A program made the position numbers and the translations under genes. A stretch of 64,000 bases of DNA from NCBI RefSeq assembly GCF_014207845.1, contig NZ_JACHLC010000002.1, positions 248,001 through 312,000 on the forward strand, in the 5' to 3' direction. This DNA comes from Chryseobacterium shigense (GTDB lineage Bacteria; Bacteroidota; Bacteroidia; Flavobacteriales; Weeksellaceae). Under the pieces are notes generated by a model. The model was not told where the DNA came from. It ran no database searches and saw nothing but the letters and a program-made list of their open reading frames with translations. This document shows positions 56,226-64,000 of the stretch, piece after piece (positions within the stretch are counted from its first letter, which is position 1; the number at the start of each line of letters is the position of its first letter).

Positions 56226-57194
56226 ATGTCATTAATAGATTTATCAAAACAAGTTGCCCTCGGAATTGATATAGGCGGAACGAATACAAAATTCGGAGTG
56301 GTAAACCACCGCGGTGAAGTTCTTGAAAAAGGAAGTCTGAGAACTGATGAATACAACAAAGTGGAAGATTTTATCGATGCTTTGTACGAGAAGGTTAAGC
56401 CCCTCATCGATAAGCATGGTGCAGAAAAAAACTTTGACGGAATCGGAGTAGGTGCTCCCAACGCCAACTACTATAAAGGAACCATAGAGCAGGCTCCCAA
56501 TTTACCGTGGAAAGGATTAATTCCTTTCAGTGAAATGATGAAAGCCAAATTCAACCTGCCGTGTACCATCACCAATGATGCCAATGCAGCAGCTCTTGGA
56601 GAAATGCTTTTCGGTGCAGCACGCGGTATGAAGGATTTTATTATGATCACTTTGGGAACAGGTGTAGGCAGTGGAATTATTTCTAACGGAAGCCTTATTT
56701 ACGGCCATGACGGTTTTGCCGGAGAACTGGGCCACACCATTGTAAAACCGGGCGGAAGAAAGCACTGGAGCACAGGATCCGAAGGAAGCCTGGAAGCTTA
56801 TGCCTCCGCAACAGGAATAGCAATTACAGCAAAAAAAATGAGGGCCGAATTCCCTGAATCTTTACTGAACCAGTACCCTGAAGAGGAAATCAATTCTAAA
56901 ACCGTTCATGAATGTGCATTGAAAGGCGACCCGATTTCTATTGAGGTTTTCAGGTATACGGGGCAAAAACTGGGTGAAGCATTAGCAAATTTCGTTATGT
57001 TTTCTTCTCCGGAAGCCATCCTTTTATTTGGTGGAGTAATCAAGGCCGGTGAATTTATTTTAAAGCCTGCCAAACTGCATATGGAAAGAAACCTTCTTCC
57101 GATTTTCAGAAATAAAGTAAAACTGGTTTTCAGTGAACTGGACGAAGCAGATGCTGCCATTCTTGGGGCAAGTGCTTTGGTTTGGGAAAAATAA
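56226..57194 (+). CDS. ROK family sugar kinase (glucokinase-like)
   Basis: A 322-residue protein. The ATP loop is LGIDIGGTNTKFG (12-24); the catalytic Asp118 lies in ITNDANAAA; TLGTGVGSGII is the second phosphate segment; FAGELGH carries the zinc-ligand His170. The ROK zinc motif CxCGxxGCxE is replaced by WSTGSEGSLE (181-190): all three cysteines are lost, so zinc binding should be impaired or altered. It probably phosphorylates glucose or a related hexose. Confidence 0.85.
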   Translation: MSLIDLSKQVALGIDIGGTNTKFGVVNHRGEVLEKGSLRTDEYNKVEDFIDALYEKVKPLIDKHGAEKNFDGIGVGAPNANYYKGTIEQAPNLPWKGLIPFSEMMKAKFNLPCTITNDANAAALGEMLFGAARGMKDFIMITLGTGVGSGIISNGSLIYGHDGFAGELGHTIVKPGGRKHWSTGSEGSLEAYASATGIAITAKKMRAEFPESLLNQYPEEEINSKTVHECALKGDPISIEVFRYTGQKLGEALANFVMFSSPEAILLFGGVIKAGEFILKPAKLHMERNLLPIFRNKVKLVFSELDEADAAILGASALVWEK

Positions 57195-57219
57195 CAGAAC
57201 ATTACATCTAAGAAATATA

Positions 57220-57246
57220 GAAGCATCCTTTTTAGGGTGCTTTTTG
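57220..57246 (+). terminator. Terminator of the ROK kinase gene
   Basis: GAAGCATCC, TTTTTA, GGGTGCTTTTTG with a T run. Confidence 0.75.
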
Positions 57247-57602
57247 TTTGAACAGGCTTTTCAATCTTAATTAAGCGATGTGAATTGTAATATACTACAG
57301 ATGGCACGGATTTTCACAGATGTTGGTGTATTATTTCTATGCTTTATTATGAATATAATTCTAAAATTTCTTAATATAATGGTTCCTATGAATCCGGAAA
57401 GTCTGGGGAATAAAAATATTTTTCTTTTTAATTTACTCTTAAATATCTGCTTTTTCAGCAATTAAAAAACACAATATCAATTATGCTTTAAATCATTGGG
57501 CTTCTCTCACAAAATGAAAAAGTTTTTCATATTTTTGATTGGTTTTTAACTCACTTCTGTGTATTTGCGGGAAAAAACTATCAATAAAATAACTAACGAA
57601 TA
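57247..57602. other. Gene-free stretch before msrA
   Basis: AT-rich, with short ORFs on both strands that have no coding character. A -7-like TATTTTTG lies at 57530-57537, 65 bases before the msrA ATG. I see no hairpin, repeat or RNA gene. Confidence 0.5.
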
Positions 57603-58157
57603 ATGGATAATAACAATTTAGAGCAGGTTACTTTCGGAGGTGGATGCTTCTGGTGTGTGGAAAGCTGCTTCAATATGCTGAAAGGTGTAGAATCTGCCAT
57701 TTCGGGGTATTCCGGAGGTCATAAAGACAACCCTACTTATGAAGAAGTGTGTACAGGTGAAACCAGTCATGCAGAAGTGGTACAGATCACTTTTGACCCT
57801 ACAATCATTTCTTATGCACAGCTGATGGATGTATTTTTCTTCCTTCACGACCCTACCCAACTGAACAGGCAGGGCAACGATATCGGAACACAATACCGTT
57901 CTGTAATTTATTATAAAGACGATGCGGAGAAGGTAAAAGCTGAAGAGGCTCTTAAAAAATCTGAAGAATCAGGAAGATGGCCCGGAAAATATGTAACAGA
58001 AATTACCCCGTTTGAGAAGTTCTGGTCCGCAGAGCAGTATCACCAGGGTTACTACAACGAGAACCCAACACAGCCATATTGCAGTGCTGTAGTAGGTCCA
58101 AAAATCCAGAAGTTCAAAAAATATTTTGGGGAACTGGGAATGCTGAATGAGGCGTAA
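57603..58157 (+). CDS. msrA: Peptide methionine sulfoxide reductase A
   Basis: A 184-residue repair enzyme that reduces methionine-S-sulfoxide. The catalytic motif GCFWC (14-18, Cys15) is at the N-terminus; GYSGGHKDNPTYEEVCTGETSHAEVVQ and DIGTQYRSVIYY are family hallmarks. Length fits MsrA without an MsrB fusion. The peptide gene at 58203 follows 45 bases on with no terminator between, so read-through into the peptide pair is possible. Confidence 0.96.
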   Translation: MDNNNLEQVTFGGGCFWCVESCFNMLKGVESAISGYSGGHKDNPTYEEVCTGETSHAEVVQITFDPTIISYAQLMDVFFFLHDPTQLNRQGNDIGTQYRSVIYYKDDAEKVKAEEALKKSEESGRWPGKYVTEITPFEKFWSAEQYHQGYYNENPTQPYCSAVVGPKIQKFKKYFGELGMLNEA

Positions 58158-58202
58158 ACGTTCTGAAATATTTGGAATTAACCATAATTTAAAAAAATAA
58201 AC

Positions 58203-58364
58203 ATGATTCAATTAATTTTATTGCTGTTTGGGTTGTCTTCTGCAGGCAATCTTAACAATACAACGGCAGACTATAGCAATCAAGCTCAAATTGCCGGAAG
58301 TGTACAACAAAACATGCAGGACACTGGCGGAGAAACCGGGCAAACTCCCCCACCACGTAAATAA
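58203..58364 (+). CDS. TPPPFTQP-family small peptide 1
   Basis: A 53-residue peptide starting MIQLILLLFGLSSAGN. The first ~13 residues are strongly hydrophobic without the basic residues of a Sec signal; the middle is polar (Asn/Gln/Ser); the end is GGETGQTPPPRK. It belongs with the peptides at 58381, 59813 and 63143, which share the MI-x-x-IL start and the GQTPPP end; here the final FTQP is replaced by RK. I know no described family. It lies 45 bases after msrA and 16 before peptide 2. Confidence 0.75.
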   Translation: MIQLILLLFGLSSAGNLNNTTADYSNQAQIAGSVQQNMQDTGGETGQTPPPRK

Positions 58365-58380
58365 TGTCAAACAAAATACC

Positions 58381-58557
58381 ATGATCAATTTTATCTTAGT
58401 GCTCATCGGATTTTTATCTTCCGGCAGCATGAACAAAGAACAAAATAATACCATTTCTCATAGGCCTCAAAATATAGTTGGTAGTTTTGAGAATAATGAG
58501 GGTGGACCGGTTGGAGGAAATTCAGGACAAACACCTCCTCCATTTACTCAGCCATAA
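58381..58557 (+). CDS. TPPPFTQP-family small peptide 2
   Basis: A 58-residue peptide: MINFILVLIGFLSSGSMNKEQ at the start, a polar middle and GGNSGQTPPPFTQP at the end. Hydrophobic start and C-terminus match its paralogues. Nested in a longer frame from 58228, but the ATG at 58381 gives the family N-terminus. It is followed at once by a perfect-stem terminator. Export route and role are not visible in the sequence. Confidence 0.78.
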   Translation: MINFILVLIGFLSSGSMNKEQNNTISHRPQNIVGSFENNEGGPVGGNSGQTPPPFTQP

Positions 58558-58592
58558 AAAACGGGGACGATCAATGATCGTCCCCGTTTTTT
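58556..58592 (+). terminator. Terminator of the first peptide pair
   Basis: AAAACGGGGACGATC, AAT, GATCGTCCCCGTTTT plus T run: a perfect 15-bp stem. It may also serve the leftward gene at 58607. Confidence 0.9.
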
Positions 58593-58606
58593 ATTACTCT
58601 TTAGCA

Positions 58607-59431
58607 CTATTTGCCGGCATATTTGTCAATAATATAAGCTGTTGATGCCCGCAATTCTCTTCCATTATCAGGGTCTTCCCCATCCATTGTAAAAAATTCT
58701 ACATTCCCGTAAAATTTTGAATACCAAGTGACTCCTAACGCATTATTAATAGTCAAAGTATCCTTTCTGTTAATCCTTTTGAAATGTTTCAGCAGTACCG
58801 AATCTACAGGTTTTAAATCATGATGTGGGTTTTTATCTGAACAGTCTGCAAGCTTATACTCGCTTTTATCCCAATACATACAGTTTTTCTCTATCAGCGG
58901 TTCTCCTCCTGTAAAAGATCCTAAATACTGAACATTGGCTTTATTTTTCTTATCAATTCCCATATAATGCCCAATAAAGACAGAACCAATAAGAAGTAAT
59001 CCCAAGATTCCTATTCCGTTTTGTTTTACAAACTCTGGCATCTTGAAATTCTGCTCATTGGTAATATTGATGATCAGCTTTGAAAATTTATCTGTTATTG
59101 ACTCTTCATCTTCATTCACGTTAATCTTCACGGTTGTTTTATTAACGGGTTCATCTTCCTTAATAAAGGTTCTGGAAAAGTCTTCAAAGTCTTCATACTC
59201 CAGATACTGGCTTAATTTATTGAGCACAAGAGTTTCTATGCCCGTTTCCTTACTTGTTTCTCCCACAAACGAATCATAGTACCTGGAAAGGGTTTTGGCA
59301 GATATGGTAAAATTCAGTTTTTTCTCAAGATCATCTGAAAGATCATCCGCCCATCCGCTTTTAGTATCTCTTGGAGATGTTCGTTTAATTTTTTCAAATA
59401 CTTCACGAATTAGTAGTTTTTTCTTGGACAT
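58607..59431 (-). CDS. Membrane-anchored protein with N-terminal helical (HTH-like) domain
   Basis: A 274-residue protein. Residues 1-92 are helical and basic, with FTISAKTLSRYYDSF as a recognition-helix-like segment, so a cytoplasmic DNA-binding role is possible. One membrane helix (about 139-158, IGILGLLLIGSVFIGHYMG) leads to an outside domain with CMYWDKSEYKLADC (Cys184, Cys197), a motif I recall from other Bacteroidota membrane regulators. It is transcribed leftward from a promoter with the TTACGGATTCCCATAA operator, away from the peptide genes. Function unknown. Confidence 0.68.
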   Translation of the reverse strand: MSKKKLLIREVFEKIKRTSPRDTKSGWADDLSDDLEKKLNFTISAKTLSRYYDSFVGETSKETGIETLVLNKLSQYLEYEDFEDFSRTFIKEDEPVNKTTVKINVNEDEESITDKFSKLIINITNEQNFKMPEFVKQNGIGILGLLLIGSVFIGHYMGIDKKNKANVQYLGSFTGGEPLIEKNCMYWDKSEYKLADCSDKNPHHDLKPVDSVLLKHFKRINRKDTLTINNALGVTWYSKFYGNVEFFTMDGEDPDNGRELRASTAYIIDKYAGK

Positions 59432-59452
59432 AATTAGTTTTTAAAGGCAATT

Positions 59453-59498
59453 ACAAAATAGGTGATTTTCGACCATGTCGCATTACGGATTCCCATAA
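59453..59498 (-). promoter_or_regulatory. Promoter with inverted-repeat operator (copy A) of the 58607 gene
   Basis: On the + strand the operator reads TTACGGATTCCCATAA (59483-59498), with two arm mismatches. Read leftward, it is 38 bp before a -7-like TATTTTG (59460-59454), 22 bases before the ATG at 59431. The near-identical operator at 62435 lies 37 bp before its own -7 element. Confidence 0.6.
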
Positions 59499-59508
59499 CG
59501 AAATTCCT

Positions 59509-59544
59509 GTCCATACTCTGTCTATCGATGTCCATGCTTTGTCT
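59509..59544. repeat. Two phased 15-bp direct repeats
   Basis: GTCCATACTCTGTCT (59509-59523) and GTCCATGCTTTGTCT (59530-59544), two mismatches, 21-bp period (two helical turns). They lie beside operator copy A and may bind a second dimeric regulator. Confidence 0.5.
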
Positions 59545-59644
59545 AACACATGCGTCATCATTTGTCGCACCTTTGTTTCAGAAATCAGTGACAAACAAAA
59601 CATTATAAAACAAATTTACAAAACTGATTTCAAAATCACCAGAT

Positions 59645-59698
59645 AAAACGGAGGAAAACTCCGGGTTGGGAAGCAGATGTTTCTCCTCCGTTTTTGAA
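59645..59698 (+). terminator. Terminator hairpin inside the leader before peptide 3
   Basis: AAAACGGAGGAAAAC pairs with GTTT, bulged C, TCCTCCGTTTT, followed by a T run. The loop contains TTGGGAAG (59666-59673), complementary to CTTCCCAA (59705-59712) downstream, and a GAAGCGCTTC palindrome with T run follows at 59721-59737. The stretch 59545-59812 has no ORF; it may encode a short RNA or an attenuating leader. Confidence 0.6.
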
Positions 59699-59812
59699 GG
59701 TTTACTTCCCAAAAATTTAAGAAGCGCTTCGAAATTTTTTATCCGTGTAACACTGCTTGTGATCTGTTTCGCAGGGAAGAGCACCAATGCCAATTTTTTA
59801 AATTTTTAAACA

Positions 59813-59998
59813 ATGTTAGAATTAATATTGATGCTACTGGGATTAGCATTTCCAAATAACAACACGAATACAGCATCATGTAATAATAATCAGCCTCAGA
59901 TAACGGTTCAGCTGACAAATCCGGGAGACGGAGACGGAAATGGCGGGCCAATTAGTGGAAACACAGGCCAGATACCTCCACCTTTCACTCAGCCATAA
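59813..59998 (+). CDS. TPPPFTQP-family small peptide 3
   Basis: A 61-residue peptide: MLELILMLLGLAFPNNN hydrophobic start, Asn-rich middle with one Cys (residue 23), Gly/Asp-rich spacer (GDGDGNGGPISGN) and the end TGQIPPPFTQP. The last ten residues match peptide 2 except I for T. It has its own terminator and an unusually structured 5' leader, and sits between the membrane protein gene and the sensor kinase. Confidence 0.8.
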   Translation: MLELILMLLGLAFPNNNTNTASCNNNQPQITVQLTNPGDGDGNGGPISGNTGQIPPPFTQP

Positions 59999-60006
59999 TA
60001 TTAAAG

Positions 60007-60036
60007 AAGAGCAGATTGTATAAATCTGCTCTTTTT
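60007..60036 (+). terminator. Terminator of peptide 3
   Basis: AAGAGCAGATT, short loop, AATCTGCTCTT plus T run, nine bases after the stop. Confidence 0.85.
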
Positions 60037-60063
60037 ATTATTTTGCAGAATAAAACCAATTCC

Positions 60064-61701
60064 ATGCAAAAAATATTCTTCTTTTTATTAATATTCCTTT
60101 TATTATTTTCGTGTAGGAAAAAAAATTTAACTCTTGATAATACATTTTATAAAGAAGCAAGAAAGTTCAGAGATTCAAATATTACAGACTCAGCATTTTA
60201 TTACTACAATTTAGCAAAAAGTGACTATTTGAAAGATCACGATTCAATAGGAGCTGCCAAATCACTCGTTAACATGGCAATATTACAATCCAAAAAAGGT
60301 GATTTTTACGGGAGTATTGAAACATCATTAGAGGCTAATAACCTCTTAAAAAATGAGAGAGATAGTACAATCAGAAGCACTCTTGTATCCAATTATAATA
60401 ATATGGCAATTTCGTCTTCATTTCTGCAAAATTATGATGAATCAGCAAAATTTTATATTCAGGCATTGAAATATGCTAACATTGGTGAAAATAAATTCAT
60501 TATTTACAATAATATAGGTGACGTATTAATACTTCAGGGAAAAACCAAACTTGCACAACAATATCTAAATAATGCACTCTTAGCAAAAGACAGTACTAAT
60601 TATTCAAGAGCGTTAAACAATTTAGCAAAAGCTAAATTTTTAGAAGATAAAAATTATAATCCTTTACCCGAACTATATAAGGCGCTGGAAATAAGATCCA
60701 GATTGAAAGAAACTGTCGAACAAAATTCCAGTTTTGCAACTATATCAGATTATTTCGCAGACAAAAATCAAGAAAGGTCATTGTTTTTTGCCAATCAATT
60801 ATTACTTACTGCAGAGAAAATTAAAAGTCCTGATGATAAGGTTCAAGCATTAAAACGGATAATTAATTTAGATCCTAAAAATTATTTAGAGAACTTTAAA
60901 AGATTTAATTTCATTAATGACAGCATACAAACGGCAAGAAGTAAAGCAAAAAATCAATTTGCAATCATCCGTTTTGATGTTGAAAAAATAAAAGCACAAA
61001 ATGCAGAAAAAGAAATTCAGTTATTACAACGAAATATTGGATTAGGTACTTTATCCATAGTTTTAATAGGAGGTTTTTTCTGGAACAAAAGAAGAAAGAA
61101 AAGGCTTCAGCAGGAAAAAGAGCTTGAAGTAAAAAATACACAGCTCAAACTCTCCAAAAGAGTTCACGATGTAGTAGCCAACGGTATTTACCAGGTGATG
61201 ACCAAAATAGAAAACCAGGAACATTTTGACAAAGAAGAGACCCTTGATGAGCTGGAATTCGTATATGAAAAATCCAGAGATATTTCTTATGAAAAGCCCG
61301 ATCCTGAAAATGATAAAAAAGATTACAAAGAAAAAATCTCACGTCTTATCGCTTCCTTTAAGAATGAAAATACAGAAACTTACACCGTAGGAAACGAAAA
61401 TGAAATCTGGAGCGGAATTTCTCAATCCGTCTTTGAAGACATTTACCAGATCATCAGGGAACTTTTGGTCAATATGAAAAAACACAGCTATGCTTCCCGG
61501 GTTATTTATAAATTTGAAAGAATTGACGATTCTATTAAAATTCAGTATTCAGACAACGGAATCGGTATTTCCGGAGATATTATTCATAAAAACGGATTGA
61601 CAAATACGGGAACCCGTATTGCTGCTATTCGCGGAGAAATTATTTTTGACAATAAATCTGAAAAAGGACTGAAGATCAATATTTCATTTCCTGTTTCCTA
61701 A
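60064..61701 (+). CDS. TPR sensor histidine kinase (NarX/HisKA_3-like), lipoprotein-type N-terminus
   Basis: A 545-residue protein from the ATG at 60064 (MQKIFFFLLIFLLLFSCRKKN, with a lipobox-like LLFSC). Residues ~25-315 are tetratricopeptide-like helices that should lie outside the cytoplasm; a membrane helix follows (about 324-343, GLGTLSIVLIGGFFW). Then a coiled linker and a HisKA_3-type kinase: His368 in RVHDVVANG, Asn470 in ELLVNMKKH (N box), Asp497 in DNGIGI, and a final GxG-like segment (NTGTRIAAIRGE). The response regulator gene is 13 bases downstream, so both form one two-component system. The TPR domain is the obvious sensor, possibly for a peptide. Confidence 0.85.
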   Translation: MQKIFFFLLIFLLLFSCRKKNLTLDNTFYKEARKFRDSNITDSAFYYYNLAKSDYLKDHDSIGAAKSLVNMAILQSKKGDFYGSIETSLEANNLLKNERDSTIRSTLVSNYNNMAISSSFLQNYDESAKFYIQALKYANIGENKFIIYNNIGDVLILQGKTKLAQQYLNNALLAKDSTNYSRALNNLAKAKFLEDKNYNPLPELYKALEIRSRLKETVEQNSSFATISDYFADKNQERSLFFANQLLLTAEKIKSPDDKVQALKRIINLDPKNYLENFKRFNFINDSIQTARSKAKNQFAIIRFDVEKIKAQNAEKEIQLLQRNIGLGTLSIVLIGGFFWNKRRKKRLQQEKELEVKNTQLKLSKRVHDVVANGIYQVMTKIENQEHFDKEETLDELEFVYEKSRDISYEKPDPENDKKDYKEKISRLIASFKNENTETYTVGNENEIWSGISQSVFEDIYQIIRELLVNMKKHSYASRVIYKFERIDDSIKIQYSDNGIGISGDIIHKNGLTNTGTRIAAIRGEIIFDNKSEKGLKINISFPVS

Positions 61702-61714
61702 AAGCCCAAAAAGA

Positions 61715-62380
61715 ATGTTCAAAAAAATTTTAATCGCCGAAGATCACGAAAGTATCAGCATTTCTATACAGAAAACATTGGAAGAACTCAACATCCTAAA
61801 TGTTGATTATGTGTATTATTGTGACGATGCGCTGGCAAAAGTTCAAAAAGCCATCCGCGATGAAGCTCCTTATGACCTTCTGATTACAGACCTTTACTAT
61901 GAAGAAGATCACCGGGAACAAAAGCTTAAAGACGGAAGAGATTTAATTCAAAAGGTCAAGGAATTACAGCCCTCCTTAAAAGTAATTGTTTTTTCTGCGG
62001 AACATAAATCAGGGATTATTGATTCTTTATTTAATAAATTCAAAATCAACGGGTATGTCCGTAAGGCAAGAAATGATTCCAAAGAATTAAAAAGGTCTAT
62101 TGCTTCTGTTTTTATTAACGAAAATTATCTGTCGCTCGATTTAAAACGGGAAGTCAAAAAACTGAACAGTTATGAGTTTTCCAATTATGACATCACCTTG
62201 GTTTCTCTTCTTTCAAAAGGAATTTTACAAAAGAACATTCCCTTGCACCTTCAGGAAAAAGATATTAAGCCCAATAGCCTGAGCAGTGTAGAAAAAAAAT
62301 TAAACAGCCTGAAGGAAGATCTTGAAGTTTCCAGCAATGAACAGCTTGTTGCTTTCTGTAAAGACCTGGGAATTATTTAA
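61715..62380 (+). CDS. Response regulator (NarL/LuxR-like)
   Basis: A 221-residue protein with a receiver domain (1-130: acidic pocket Glu9-Asp10, phospho-acceptor Asp59 in LLITDLYY, Lys near 107 in YVRKAR) and a C-terminal ~70-residue domain (NYDITLVSLLSKGILQKNIPLHLQEKDIKPNSLSSVEKKLNSLKEDL) in the place of a LuxR-type HTH, diverged. It is the partner of the TPR kinase. The repeat TTACGGATTTCCGTAA just downstream of its own terminator, before the 62508 gene, is a candidate binding site. Confidence 0.85.
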   Translation: MFKKILIAEDHESISISIQKTLEELNILNVDYVYYCDDALAKVQKAIRDEAPYDLLITDLYYEEDHREQKLKDGRDLIQKVKELQPSLKVIVFSAEHKSGIIDSLFNKFKINGYVRKARNDSKELKRSIASVFINENYLSLDLKREVKKLNSYEFSNYDITLVSLLSKGILQKNIPLHLQEKDIKPNSLSSVEKKLNSLKEDLEVSSNEQLVAFCKDLGII

Positions 62381-62400
62381 AATCTTTTTAAAATTCATAC

Positions 62401-62430
62401 AAACCTTTCAAGTTTTTTGAAAGGTTTTTT
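62401..62430 (+). terminator. Terminator of the two-component operon
   Basis: AAACCTTTCAA, five bases, TTGAAAGGTTT plus T run. Confidence 0.85.
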
Positions 62431-62434
62431 CGTT

Positions 62435-62479
62435 TTACGGATTTCCGTAAGGAAGAGATTTTCAGGCTTCATACTTTTG
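62435..62479 (+). promoter_or_regulatory. Promoter with perfect-arm operator (copy B) of the 62508 gene
   Basis: TTACGGA-TT-TCCGTAA at 62435-62450, and a -7 element TACTTTTG at 62472-62479, 29 bases before the ATG. The palindrome centre lies about 40 bp upstream of the expected start of transcription, the position used by activators such as NarL/LuxR-type regulators that touch the -35 region. Copy A is at 59483. Confidence 0.65.
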
Positions 62480-62507
62480 AGATGTTAAACCAATAAAATT
62501 TTTTAAC

Positions 62508-62678
62508 ATGTCGAAAAAACCAATAGGTACAAAAGCAAAAACAGGAGAAGAATGTCCTGAATCAGGCGTCTGGAAAGTTGTGGGAACTCCATCCACAACA
62601 GCACCAATTGCCAAAGGTAATAGAATGCCCCCTTATGGCGGTAATTCTGTTACTTGGGAGCTAATTCAATACGCTTAG
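62508..62678 (+). CDS. YjzC-like small protein
   Basis: A 56-residue protein too short for many gene finders: MSKKPIGTKAKTGEECPESG, then VWKVVGTPSTTAPIAKGNRMPP and YGGNSVTWELIQYA. The pattern GT-x-A/C-P-x-SG-x-W ... KG-x-x-x-PP ... W resembles the YjzC-like family of small proteins of unknown function. It has its own operator-promoter and terminator within the peptide/two-component locus, so it is a likely direct target of the response regulator (inference). Confidence 0.75.
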   Translation: MSKKPIGTKAKTGEECPESGVWKVVGTPSTTAPIAKGNRMPPYGGNSVTWELIQYA

Positions 62679-62683
62679 CTCTA

Positions 62684-62718
62684 TTCCAACGATCATTTAT
62701 TTGATCGTTGGAGTTTTT
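62684..62718 (+). terminator. Terminator of the 62508 gene
   Basis: CCAACGATCA, six bases, TGATCGTTGG, then AGTTTTT. Confidence 0.85.
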
Positions 62719-62744
62719 AAAAAATTTAATAAAAAATAATACTC

Positions 62745-63056
62745 ATGAAAAAACTACTATTCACAACACTGCTGGCTGCTGGCTTGCTCCTTCCGGCTTA
62801 CTATACTGGAATGGCCAACAATACCGTTTCCAAAACAGAATTATCTTCCAAAAATCAAAAGAAAAAAGCAAAGAAAAATAAAAACAGGAAAAGTTCAGCT
62901 TCCAACCGATCAGGATCCTATTACTATTCCCAAAGCGGAGGAGGGTGTACCTATGGCGGAAATAAACTCTATGTAGGTTCCAGAGGAGGATGCTATTACT
63001 ATAGCGGCAGTACTAAACAATATGTAGACAGGTCATATTGTTCCGGCTGCAACTAA
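62745..63056 (+). CDS. Secreted Lys- then Gly/Tyr/Ser-rich protein
   Basis: A 103-residue protein with a signal peptide (KLLFTTLLAAGLLLPAYYTGMA). The mature part opens with a very basic segment (NQKKKAKKNKNRKSS) and ends with a Gly/Ser/Tyr-rich part with four Cys (SGGGCTYGGNKLYVGSRGGCYYYSGSTKQYVDRSYCSGCN). The composition recalls small secreted adhesive or antimicrobial proteins; PF-type names are not known to me. It lacks a TPPPFTQP end. No promoter is evident between the preceding terminator and its ATG, so partial read-through may express it. Confidence 0.75.
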   Translation: MKKLLFTTLLAAGLLLPAYYTGMANNTVSKTELSSKNQKKKAKKNKNRKSSASNRSGSYYYSQSGGGCTYGGNKLYVGSRGGCYYYSGSTKQYVDRSYCSGCN

Positions 63057-63098
63057 TACAGCCCAAAACTAAAATCTTTCATCATAAAAGCAGAGAGA

Positions 63099-63106
63099 TA
63101 TCTTTG
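63099..63106 (+). promoter_or_regulatory. -7 element TATCTTTG of peptide 4
   Basis: It fits TAnnTTTG and lies 36 bases before the ATG at 63143. No TTG at -33 spacing and no TTACGGA operator. Confidence 0.5.
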
Positions 63107-63142
63107 CTTTTTGTATTTTAGACCTTATTAATTCAAAATAAT

Positions 63143-63343
63143 ATGATACAATTTATTCTTATGCTGTTCGGCTTAATGTCTCCGGAAAAGGATACGAATG
63201 CATTTTACAGCAGTCAAAGTCAGATAACCACTCAGGTAAGCAGTCAGGAAATTGATCTTACTGATGGAAATGGTGGTGGAAATGGAAACGGCCACGGAAA
63301 TGGCGGAAACACTGGTGGGAATACAGGCCAGACACCTCCTTAA
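63143..63343 (+). CDS. TPPPFTQP-family small peptide 4
   Basis: A 66-residue peptide: MIQFILMLFGLMSPEKD start, a polar middle (QSQITTQVSSQEID), a Gly/Asn repeat region (NGGGNGNGHGNGGNTGGN) and the end TGQTPP, cut off before the PFTQP present in peptides 2 and 3. It is the most Gly-rich of the four. It has its own -7 element and terminator. Confidence 0.78.
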   Translation: MIQFILMLFGLMSPEKDTNAFYSSQSQITTQVSSQEIDLTDGNGGGNGNGHGNGGNTGGNTGQTPP

Positions 63344-63357
63344 CATACTCACAACAT

Positions 63358-63386
63358 AAAAAGCGAAGATTTCTCTTCGCTTTTTT
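63358..63386. terminator. Terminator between peptide 4 and elaA
   Basis: AAAAAGCGAAGA, TTTC, TCTTCGCTTTTTT: A and T runs on both sides, so it can act for both converging genes. Confidence 0.85.
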
Positions 63387-63834
63387 ATTTTCTAATCATT
63401 TCCGTATGCGGAATATCATCTTCCAGATATTTCTTTCCCGTATCTATAAACCCGAATTCAGAGTAGAATCTTAATAAATAATCCTGCGCTGAAATCTTTA
63501 TTTCAGAAGTATGGAAACGGTTTTCTATAATTTCTACAGCGTATTTGATCAACTGCCGGCCAAGATTCTTTCCTCTCGCCTTTTCCGTTGTAAGAACTCT
63601 CCCCAAAGAAGTTTCATCATACTTGATTCCTTTATCAAACACACGGCAGTAAGCAAGGATTTCTCCATCCTCTTCAGCCCAGATATGAACAGCCTTCTGA
63701 TCATAATTATCAAGGTCAGGATAAGGACAGTTCTGTTCAATCACAAAAACATCAATTCTTGCTTTCAGAATAGCATACAGTTCAGGAACCGTAAATTCAT
63801 TGAAGATTTTAATCTTCCAGATTATACTACTCAT
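63385..63834 (-). CDS. elaA: GNAT family N-acetyltransferase, ElaA type
   Basis: A 149-residue protein. IFNEFTVPELYAILKARIDVFVIEQNCPYPDLDNYDQKAVHI is the ElaA opening; GRVLTTEKARGKNLGRQLIKYAV holds the acetyl-CoA loop (R/Q-x-x-G-x-G/A), and RFYSEFGFIDTGKKYLEDDIPHTEMIR ends it. The substrate is unknown. Its start overlaps the engB stop by eight bases. Confidence 0.9.
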   Translation of the reverse strand: MSSIIWKIKIFNEFTVPELYAILKARIDVFVIEQNCPYPDLDNYDQKAVHIWAEEDGEILAYCRVFDKGIKYDETSLGRVLTTEKARGKNLGRQLIKYAVEIIENRFHTSEIKISAQDYLLRFYSEFGFIDTGKKYLEDDIPHTEMIRK

Positions 63835-64000
63835 CGAAACTGATGTTATTATTCTTTAAAAAATCATTGGTCTTCTGGATGAAAGCCAGGATTTCATCCC
63901 CTCCTGTTTTCTTTTCCGCAGAAGTTACGTACAGCTCCGGAAGGTCCTCCCAGGTTTTATGCAATTCATTCTTATAGTTTTCTACATTCTGAATGGCAAC
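63827..64000 (-). CDS. engB: 3' end of ribosome-biogenesis GTPase EngB/YsxC (cut by window edge)
   Basis: Only the last 57 codons are in the window. The segment VENYKNELHKTWEDLPELYVTSAEKKTGGDEILAFIQKTNDFL corresponds to the G5 (TSA/SEKKTG) and C-terminal helix of EngB, a GTPase needed for 50S assembly. The G1-G4 motifs lie outside. The stop at 63829 falls inside elaA, so the two are probably cotranscribed. Confidence 0.82.
   Translation of the reverse strand, partial: VAIQNVENYKNELHKTWEDLPELYVTSAEKKTGGDEILAFIQKTNDFLKNNNISFDE

Follow-up and report, generated by a model that had tools for sequence, protein, structure and literature searches.

Why should four small, related peptide genes cluster around one two-component system? 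The question is raised by a locus of Chryseobacterium shigense that lies in a stretch of 64,000 nucleotides (assembly GCF_014207845.1, contig NZ_JACHLC010000002.1, positions 248,001 to 312,000; hereafter the window). Here, a membrane histidine kinase with a tetratricopeptide repeat (TPR) sensor and its response regulator are accompanied by a cognate peptide gene immediately 5' of the kinase and by three non-adjacent members of the same peptide family (Table 1). We find that the C-terminal tail of the kinase-adjacent peptide covaries with the kinase sensor, while the head of the peptide is constant and the tail is its diversified part. Since the tail covaries with the sensor, the peptide is most likely a ligand of the kinase. 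We put at roughly three in four the probability that the locus encodes a ribosomally made peptide signal of many pherotypes with a periplasmic TPR kinase as its receptor.

Covariation of peptide tail and kinase sensor

A preliminary description, made from the letters of the window alone, had grouped the four peptides into one family, with heads devoid of basic residues and with individual terminators behind three of them. This is confirmed. All four are open reading frames of 53-66 codons with shared motifs, terminator-like hairpins lie directly 3' of three, and lysine and arginine are missing from the first 13 residues in 133 of 134 kinase-adjacent peptides. The tail motif [TSG]GQ.PP has only four matches in the six-frame translation of the 64 kb, namely the four peptides, and a head motif that we tried likewise finds only these. 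A search of the own genome with the peptide at 58381 recovered two other members (E-values 5e-5 and 1.5e-4). The peptide at 63143 was absent from the matches to this single query at E<=10 and joins the family via the four-row profile, to which it contributes. Neither Pfam nor NCBIfam gave a family above cut-off for any of the four. The family is not a product of chance, since the four-peptide profile (E<=0.01) matched in 139 of 148 genomes of the genus Chryseobacterium. In 119 of these 139 genomes there is a single match, and the maximum is 12 per genome.

The response regulator, searched in the same 148 genomes at E<=1e-10, was found in 141. Peptide and regulator occur together in 139 genomes and are both absent from seven; two genomes have the regulator only (G011 and G088, with a stop within the regulator frame of G088), and the peptide never occurs without the regulator. 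Among the 150 peptide places listed, 137 share a contig with a listed regulator, and all of these, among the matches listed, lie on the strand of the regulator at a distance of 0.77-4.85 kb. Of these 137 places 130 are upstream, at a median of 1.74 kb, which is immediately 5' of the kinase. The other 13 places belong to four genomes without a regulator among the matches listed and to one genome in which the two are on separate contigs. The association with the kinase that the preliminary description had seen in one locus is thus genus-wide, and the refuting condition set in that description, homologues standing apart from kinases, did not refute it. The description's proposal that the peptides are under the control of the kinase does not carry over: the tail covaries with the sensor, and we prefer the ligand reading.

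Beyond the genus, a broader profile of 54 rows was positive in 203 of 320 genomes of the bacterial family, covering 8 of 33 genera. A search across the order, by a sequence profile that would miss analogues, was positive in 52 of 395 genomes, all within the bacterial family of the window. A protein search at E<=0.01 returned 257 proteins; among the 120 listed, all named organisms are Chryseobacterium and most entries are called "hypothetical protein". Regulator loci with a named genome numbered 60, of which 59 are from Chryseobacterium and one is from Soonwooa; the closest regulator among them is that of C. vrystaatense (96% identical).

We compared 141 loci, that is 140 and the window. An iterated hidden Markov model, run on open reading frames with an ATG start, called 179 members in 134 of the 141 loci including the window; of the seven loci without a call, four genomes (G067, G099, G104, G115) match the 54-row profile. 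In one locus, L117 (of G088), there is neither peptide nor leader and the regulator frame has a stop codon, and the system appears, from its sequence, to be decaying.

In the kinase-adjacent peptides the head is common to all, close to MIQFILMLLGLAF...NNNANT, and the differences lie in the tails. Recurring tail types include GQLPPPFTNP, SGETGQILPPKK, TSGDNGQLPPKK, DTGPVRPPKN and GQKPPLSDPGTNP, and most tails are preceded by a glycine step (GG[END], SG, TG), which is not always GG. We counted 81 distinct C-terminal nonapeptides among 134 peptides. Sorted coarsely, 132 tails comprise 57 of K-type (a final K, R or N behind PP), 64 of P-type and 11 of GQKPP type. The preliminary description had taken the differing ends for truncations of a core under diversification. 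The diversity exists, but it does not come from truncation: the ends fall into discrete, recurring types behind a constant head.

For the analysis of coevolution we took the last 13 residues as the tail and compared its similarity with pairwise identities of the other parts over 132 loci. Tail similarity correlates with sensor identity at r 0.56, and the partial correlation given kinase core and regulator is 0.561, a value reached in none of 1000 permutations (maximum 0.078). By comparison, the tail correlates with the kinase core at 0.086 and with the regulator at 0.066. The head correlates with the sensor at 0.018, a level reached by 100 of 300 permutations on the partial measure, and the sensor itself follows neither the regulator (r -0.02) nor the kinase core (r 0.004). 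Aligned without gaps from the C-terminus, the signal resides mainly in the last 14 residues, fades by position -22 and is below 0.08 beyond -29; positions -3 and -4, mostly proline, carry none.

The correlation persists after dereplication to 91 sensors (r 0.574) and within the 57 K-type (0.574) and the 64 P-type tails (0.288), each with 0 of 500 permutations. In 130 of 132 loci the nearest neighbour by sensor shares the coarse tail class, and it does so in 127 when neighbours of more than 60% identity are removed; nearest neighbours by regulator agree in 98 loci and those by kinase core in 92, the chance level being 56. The coarse class changes five times on the sensor tree versus 28 times on a tree of kinase core and regulator, the minima of 100 shuffles being 44 and 45. 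Among pairs with a regulator identity of at least 0.90, sensors are 0.79 identical if the tails are the same (45 pairs) versus 0.37 if they differ (122 pairs), the kinase cores being 0.90 versus 0.85 identical. A second genus also showed the correlation, with r 0.411 over 18 loci and 0.372 after dereplication to 15 (each 0 of 2000 permutations).

The kinase as putative receptor, and the spare peptides

A lipobox-like cysteine follows the hydrophobic start in 131 of 137 full kinase frames, and in the remaining six a cysteine after the hydrophobic run was found by eye. The order is TPR sensor, one transmembrane segment (TM), DHp domain and ATPase domain, with positive charge after the TM in 132 of 132 kinases. 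The lipobox-like cysteine and the single TM with its trailing positive charge predict a periplasmic sensor. All 132 kinases have the phospho-accepting histidine, the N-box asparagine and the G1-box aspartate with its two glycines, and all 132 regulators have the phospho-accepting aspartate. Some kinases begin with TTG or GTG. In particular, where the tail is of the GQKPP or GQTPPR type, the kinase has no early ATG in frame and its reading frame opens near a TTG or GTG (L090, L103, L119, L142, L101, L094, L063, L148, L158, L161, L106). In L092 and L122 the kinase frames have only about 300 codons, with a peptide alongside. A charge complementarity between sensor and K-type tails was considered and dropped, since the charge of the whole sensor is lower in the K-type (+5.5 vs +10.0) and helix A3 shows the opposite.

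In the ligand reading, the precursor would combine a constant hydrophobic head for export or membrane insertion, a variable linker rich in N, G and T, and, at the C-terminus, a specific tail some 10-14 residues long. Exposed on the outer face of the inner membrane, this tail would sit in a groove of the TPR sensor that the adjacent kinase has in the periplasm, and the tail-bound kinase would then phosphorylate the response regulator. Read directly from the sequences are the conserved gene order, the catalytic residues, the coevolution of tail and sensor, the exchange of the cassette and, within a sensor type, the purifying selection that acts on the tail. The tail would have to be processed, released and bound, and might pass between cells in quorum or kin signalling; the effect may be activation or inhibition, and the output would be a regulon of the response regulator.

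Non-adjacent members number 45, spread over 15 loci. In 27 of them, including all three spare members of the window, the last nine residues equal those of the kinase-adjacent peptide of another genome, whereas two nine-residue stretches of the middle, used as a control, gave such matches in 1 and 3 of the 45. One of the 45 lacks the tail entirely. None shares its last nine residues with the adjacent peptide of its own locus, which given the 81 distinct endings is no evidence alone. Spare members with foreign tails may interfere with or mimic other pherotypes.

The best surviving alternative, which we consider unlikely, is that the peptide is a subunit of the kinase acting in cis: anchored in the inner membrane, it would present its tail as a built-in agonist, inhibitor or chaperone to the sensor of the same cell, for example as a reporter of envelope state, and no signal would pass between cells. 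A head that is hydrophobic but carries none of the basic residues expected of a signal peptide suits such a subunit, as does the lack of a conserved exporter among the locus genes traced, and coevolution demonstrates the matching of tail and sensor, not release. However, a cis subunit would not require many sharply different allelic types exchanged between species, and the tails of other genomes found on 27 of the 45 spare members fit a released or competing ligand better.

Three loci, L083 (G054), L081 (G052) and L110 (G081), carry arrays of 8-12 members that flank one kinase/regulator pair on both sides. The array members have mostly differing tails and are mostly 3-89 nt apart. No shared motif 5' of non-adjacent members was seen among the top k-mers.

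Small paralogues that are diversified and sometimes numerous (up to 12 per genome) and that bear a hydrophobic head could also be antimicrobial or contact-killing peptides, with the kinase as a sensor or immunity switch and the tail types as strain-specific toxins. We regard this as improbable. The spacing in the three largest arrays leaves no space for one immunity gene per peptide, the diversified part is a short polar tail with proline and lysine and not the hydrophobic head, a single member is the rule in positive genomes (119 of 139), and purifying selection acts on the tail among peptides of one sensor type (see below).

An exchanged cassette and selection on the tail

From 63 pairs of loci with a regulator identity of at least 0.93 and a tail similarity below 0.5, we profiled the six of highest regulator identity in bins of 60 nt. 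Over the roughly 200 nt 5' of the peptide start, five pairs have a DNA identity of 0.87-1.00, and the sixth, L044/L076, dips to 0.57. Beginning 40-160 nt inside the peptide gene identity drops to about 0.4-0.7, returns to 0.87-0.98 at +1300 to +1360, which is the TM/DHp boundary, and stays mostly above 0.85 through the regulator. Beyond the regulator some of the six pairs diverge again. The profile has the look of allelic exchange of a ligand-receptor module, in which close relatives carry different alleles of one cassette.

Within this block, the tail is the part that is kept among related sensors. At a sensor identity of 0.75-0.97 (66 pairs, 59 of them in register), 20 non-synonymous versus 164 synonymous changes fall in the last ten codons, a ratio of the respective rates (dN/dS) of 0.04 from pooled and non-independent pairs, compared with 0.43 for the middle and 0.23 for the head. 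Tails are 91% and middles 51% identical at a sensor identity of 0.75-0.90 (54 pairs), and 86% and 66% identical at 0.90-1.0 (14 pairs). Thus, tails differ from one sensor type to another and stay frozen among close sensors. That other selection, such as attack by phage or predators on the exposed sensor, diversified the whole block from mid-peptide to sensor with the tail as a passenger is hardly credible, although tail and sensor do lie within one exchanged block, since the middle diverges while the tail is frozen despite its 164 pooled synonymous changes, non-adjacent members retain the tail repertoire but not the middles, and three of the six profiled pairs lose identity as early as 40-100 nt from the peptide start, before much of the linker.

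Several observations weigh against the ligand reading. Tail and sensor are neighbours in one DNA block, and linkage accounts for part of their covariation. Below 75% sensor identity the tail is no more constrained than the head (dN/dS of tail, middle and head 0.36, 0.49 and 0.28 at a sensor identity of 0.60-0.75, and 0.44, 0.53 and 0.38 at 0.45-0.60), and the pooling of non-independent pairs applies to all these ratios. The head, too, correlates with the sensor in the second genus (0.378 over the 18 loci before dereplication; 0.196 afterwards, reached in 202 of 2000 permutations). Basic residues, which a normal signal peptide would have, are missing from the head, and there is no conserved exporter, protease or modifying enzyme among the nine window genes traced. 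Finally, the fold of the sensor, judged from a structural model, matches TPR proteins in general and not RapI alone: in structural comparison RapI came top with 23.4, tied with TSK (22.9) and LGN (22.6), and the top match in Foldseek was LGN.

Known systems, leader element and neighbouring genes

Systems that match a peptide pheromone to a kinase receptor are typical of Gram-positive bacteria, and scattered peptide signals of Gram-negative bacteria have been reported, for example the E. coli death factor. Receptors of the RRNPP family (Rap-Phr, NprR-NprX, PlcR-PapR, Rgg-SHP) are by definition cytoplasmic, with a helix-turn-helix (HTH) or phosphatase-type effector, and their peptides are re-imported by an Opp-type permease. 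The present system shares with them a short precursor gene beside the receptor gene; for its sensor model, RapI came top only in the tie given above. In contrast, its TPR domain, placed between a lipobox-like signal and a single TM, is fused to a histidine kinase, its host is a Gram-negative member of the Bacteroidota, and the predicted periplasmic sensor would need no import step. Allelic groups with matched peptide and kinase sensor are also known from Agr (AgrBDCA). Matched types are found here too, but no AgrB-like protease is conserved among the locus genes, to which the search was confined, and 69 of 134 kinase-adjacent peptides are without cysteine. As to GG-leader peptides, which have a double-glycine cleavage site and an adjacent exporter with a C39 peptidase (PCAT), a glycine step precedes most tails here but is not always GG, and no exporter is among the conserved locus genes (nine traced).

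In ComQXPA of Bacillus, pherotypes go along with a variable N-terminus and a conserved cytoplasmic part of the kinase, and the genes stand in the order peptide, kinase, regulator (PMC4008528). The order of genes is the same here, with all three adjacent on one strand, and likewise the peptide and the receptor N-terminus are polymorphic and the kinase core is conserved. The system departs from ComQXPA in that no ComQ-like modifying enzyme (isoprenyl transferase) is among the conserved locus genes (nine traced), the sensor is a soluble TPR domain and not a polytopic one in the membrane, and the peptide is unrelated. For Gram-negative bacteria, a passage of a 2026 review gives an open-ended list of signals in which all entries are small molecules and none is a ribosomal peptide (PMC13419125). 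N-acyl-cyclolysine, a chemical signal reported in Bacteroidota (cited in PMC13419125), is such a small molecule, unlike the ribosomal peptide considered here. Our literature search, which covered subscription papers in part, found no description of the system. In these comparisons, it would work like a pherotype-bearing peptide-kinase system whose receptor may resemble RRNPP proteins in fold, and by the features compared it belongs to neither family. If the ligand reading is true, these bacteria (139 of 148 genomes of the genus, 8 of 33 genera) would possess a private signalling code, a peptide "language" of many dialects in organisms for which the literature searched holds no such report. A Rap-like TPR fold would be at work outside the cytoplasm, and receptor-ligand coevolution could be measured over more than 100 natural pairs, the pairing being directly testable with synthetic tails of 10-14 residues.

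A conserved leader precedes the cognate peptide (Table 1). It was found in 147 of 158 loci (blastn, E<=1e-15); seven of the 11 loci missed have a diverged copy with the palindrome GAAGCGCTTC, and L043, L051, L117 and L128 have no leader copy in the stretch examined. The leader is 80-90% identical in a genus whose sensors are 37-43% identical, and it is single copy in the own genome. All nine genomes without peptide lack it at E<=0.001, in a search that found two diverged positives weakly. The palindrome lies 80-109 nt before 132 of 134 kinase-adjacent peptides and is present as one copy in 133 of 134 loci and as two in the remaining locus, so most non-adjacent members are without it. The own genome has GAAGCGCTTC at five places, compared with none for a control pattern. 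The four further sites (C1:1508532, C1:1744713, C2:484006 and C3:379559 of G000) are possible regulon sites.

An alignment of 53 leader sequences was used to count three stems: P1 (GAAATCAG/CTGATTTC), P2 (AAACGGAGG/CCTCCGTTT), which is followed by U and is terminator-like, and P3 (TTGGGAAG/CTTCCCAA), which is interleaved with P2. The third stem was read from the alignment by eye and counted afterwards. Together they have 95.6% paired cells versus 47-64% in slid positions, and both-side changes in 24 cells of six pairs versus 4-11 cells in 3-6 pairs. Of 500 shuffles, which ignore relatedness, none matches the paired percentage, these counts or the covariation score, and 10 match the number of pair types. 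Five of the six core pairs of P3 are invariant and hence uninformative. RNAalifold found two of the three stems with a covariation term of 0, and the minimum-energy fold of the window leader alone (z -3.27) keeps P1 and has other local hairpins elsewhere. An Rfam search of 57100-63900 gave 12 matches up to E 5, none at the gathering score and none in the leader. Since the shuffles ignore relatedness and the RNAalifold term is 0, an RNA switch is a candidate, with a regulatory DNA site as the alternative.

A strict Bacteroidota promoter pattern was absent from the 150 nt 5' of all 134 adjacent and 45 other peptides, and the pattern count in the adjacent set was below that in its shuffles. This stretch is mostly within the leader, and a promoter 5' of the leader would lie outside the search. 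The sole feature seen there is a conserved TTTG.

A more elaborate form of the ligand reading is tentative, and we rate it somewhat short of even odds. According to it, a ribosomal peptide pheromone of Gram-negative Bacteroidota would be read in the periplasm by an RRNPP-like TPR receptor that is fused to a histidine kinase, and dozens of pherotypes would spread between species as a cassette in which tail and receptor domain are replaced together. The spare genes, three here, would be a library of foreign signals for eavesdropping or jamming, and the leader RNA would gate production through its terminator-like stem, interleaved with the second one.

Table 1. Features of the peptide-kinase locus (positions in the window; L numbers denote compared loci).
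Feature	Position	Strand	Remarks
Non-adjacent family member	58203..58364	+	53 aa; tail ETGQTPPPRK; last 9 residues as in kinase-adjacent peptide of L171
Non-adjacent family member	58381..58557	+	58 aa; tail NSGQTPPPFTQP; last 9 residues as in kinase-adjacent peptides of L172 and L143
Terminator-like hairpin	58554..58594	+	3' of the 58381 member
Divergent gene	58607..59431	-	Helical N-terminal domain, predicted TM, small C-terminal beta domain; HTH-TM-like
Conserved leader element (candidate structured RNA or regulatory DNA)	59564..59735	+	About 170 nt; 5' of cognate peptide
Palindrome GAAGCGCTTC	59721..59730	.	5' of 134/134 called kinase-adjacent peptides
Cognate (kinase-adjacent) peptide gene	59813..60001	+	61 aa; tail GNTGQIPPPFTQP; orthologues immediately 5' of kinase across the genus
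Putative allelic cassette, 3' part of peptide gene to TM/DHp boundary	59860..61150	+	Approximate limits, transferred from other loci
Terminator-like hairpin	60004..60036	+	Between cognate peptide and kinase
Membrane histidine kinase	60064..61701	+	Lipobox-like Cys, TPR sensor, one TM, DHp, HATPase; Pfam TPR_12, HATPase_c
TPR sensor domain (Cys to TM), hypervariable receptor part	60112..61032	+	
Response regulator	61715..62380	+	221 aa; Pfam Response_reg
Non-adjacent family member	63143..63343	+	66 aa; tail GGNTGQTPP; last 9 residues as in kinase-adjacent peptide of L083
Terminator-like hairpin	63358..63385	+	3' of the 63143 member

Nine window genes around the system were traced by tblastn in 140 loci, and only the kinase, the regulator and the divergent gene reach at least 135. 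The divergent gene, present in 135 of the 140 loci, is probably a further part of the system. It had no Pfam match above cut-off, and a fold search gave no match at E<=0.001 with a model of pLDDT (predicted local confidence) 74 in which residues 93-178 are unreliable. The idea that it tracks the tail was rejected, its correlation being 0.10-0.12 with the tail and 0.07-0.08 with the sensor. Two small genes lie between the regulator and the last peptide: one (62508-62678) encodes a 56-aa protein and is found in 13 of 140 loci, the other (62745-63056) encodes a 103-aa protein with a signal-like start that contains glycine, tyrosine and cysteine, and is found in 58 of 140.

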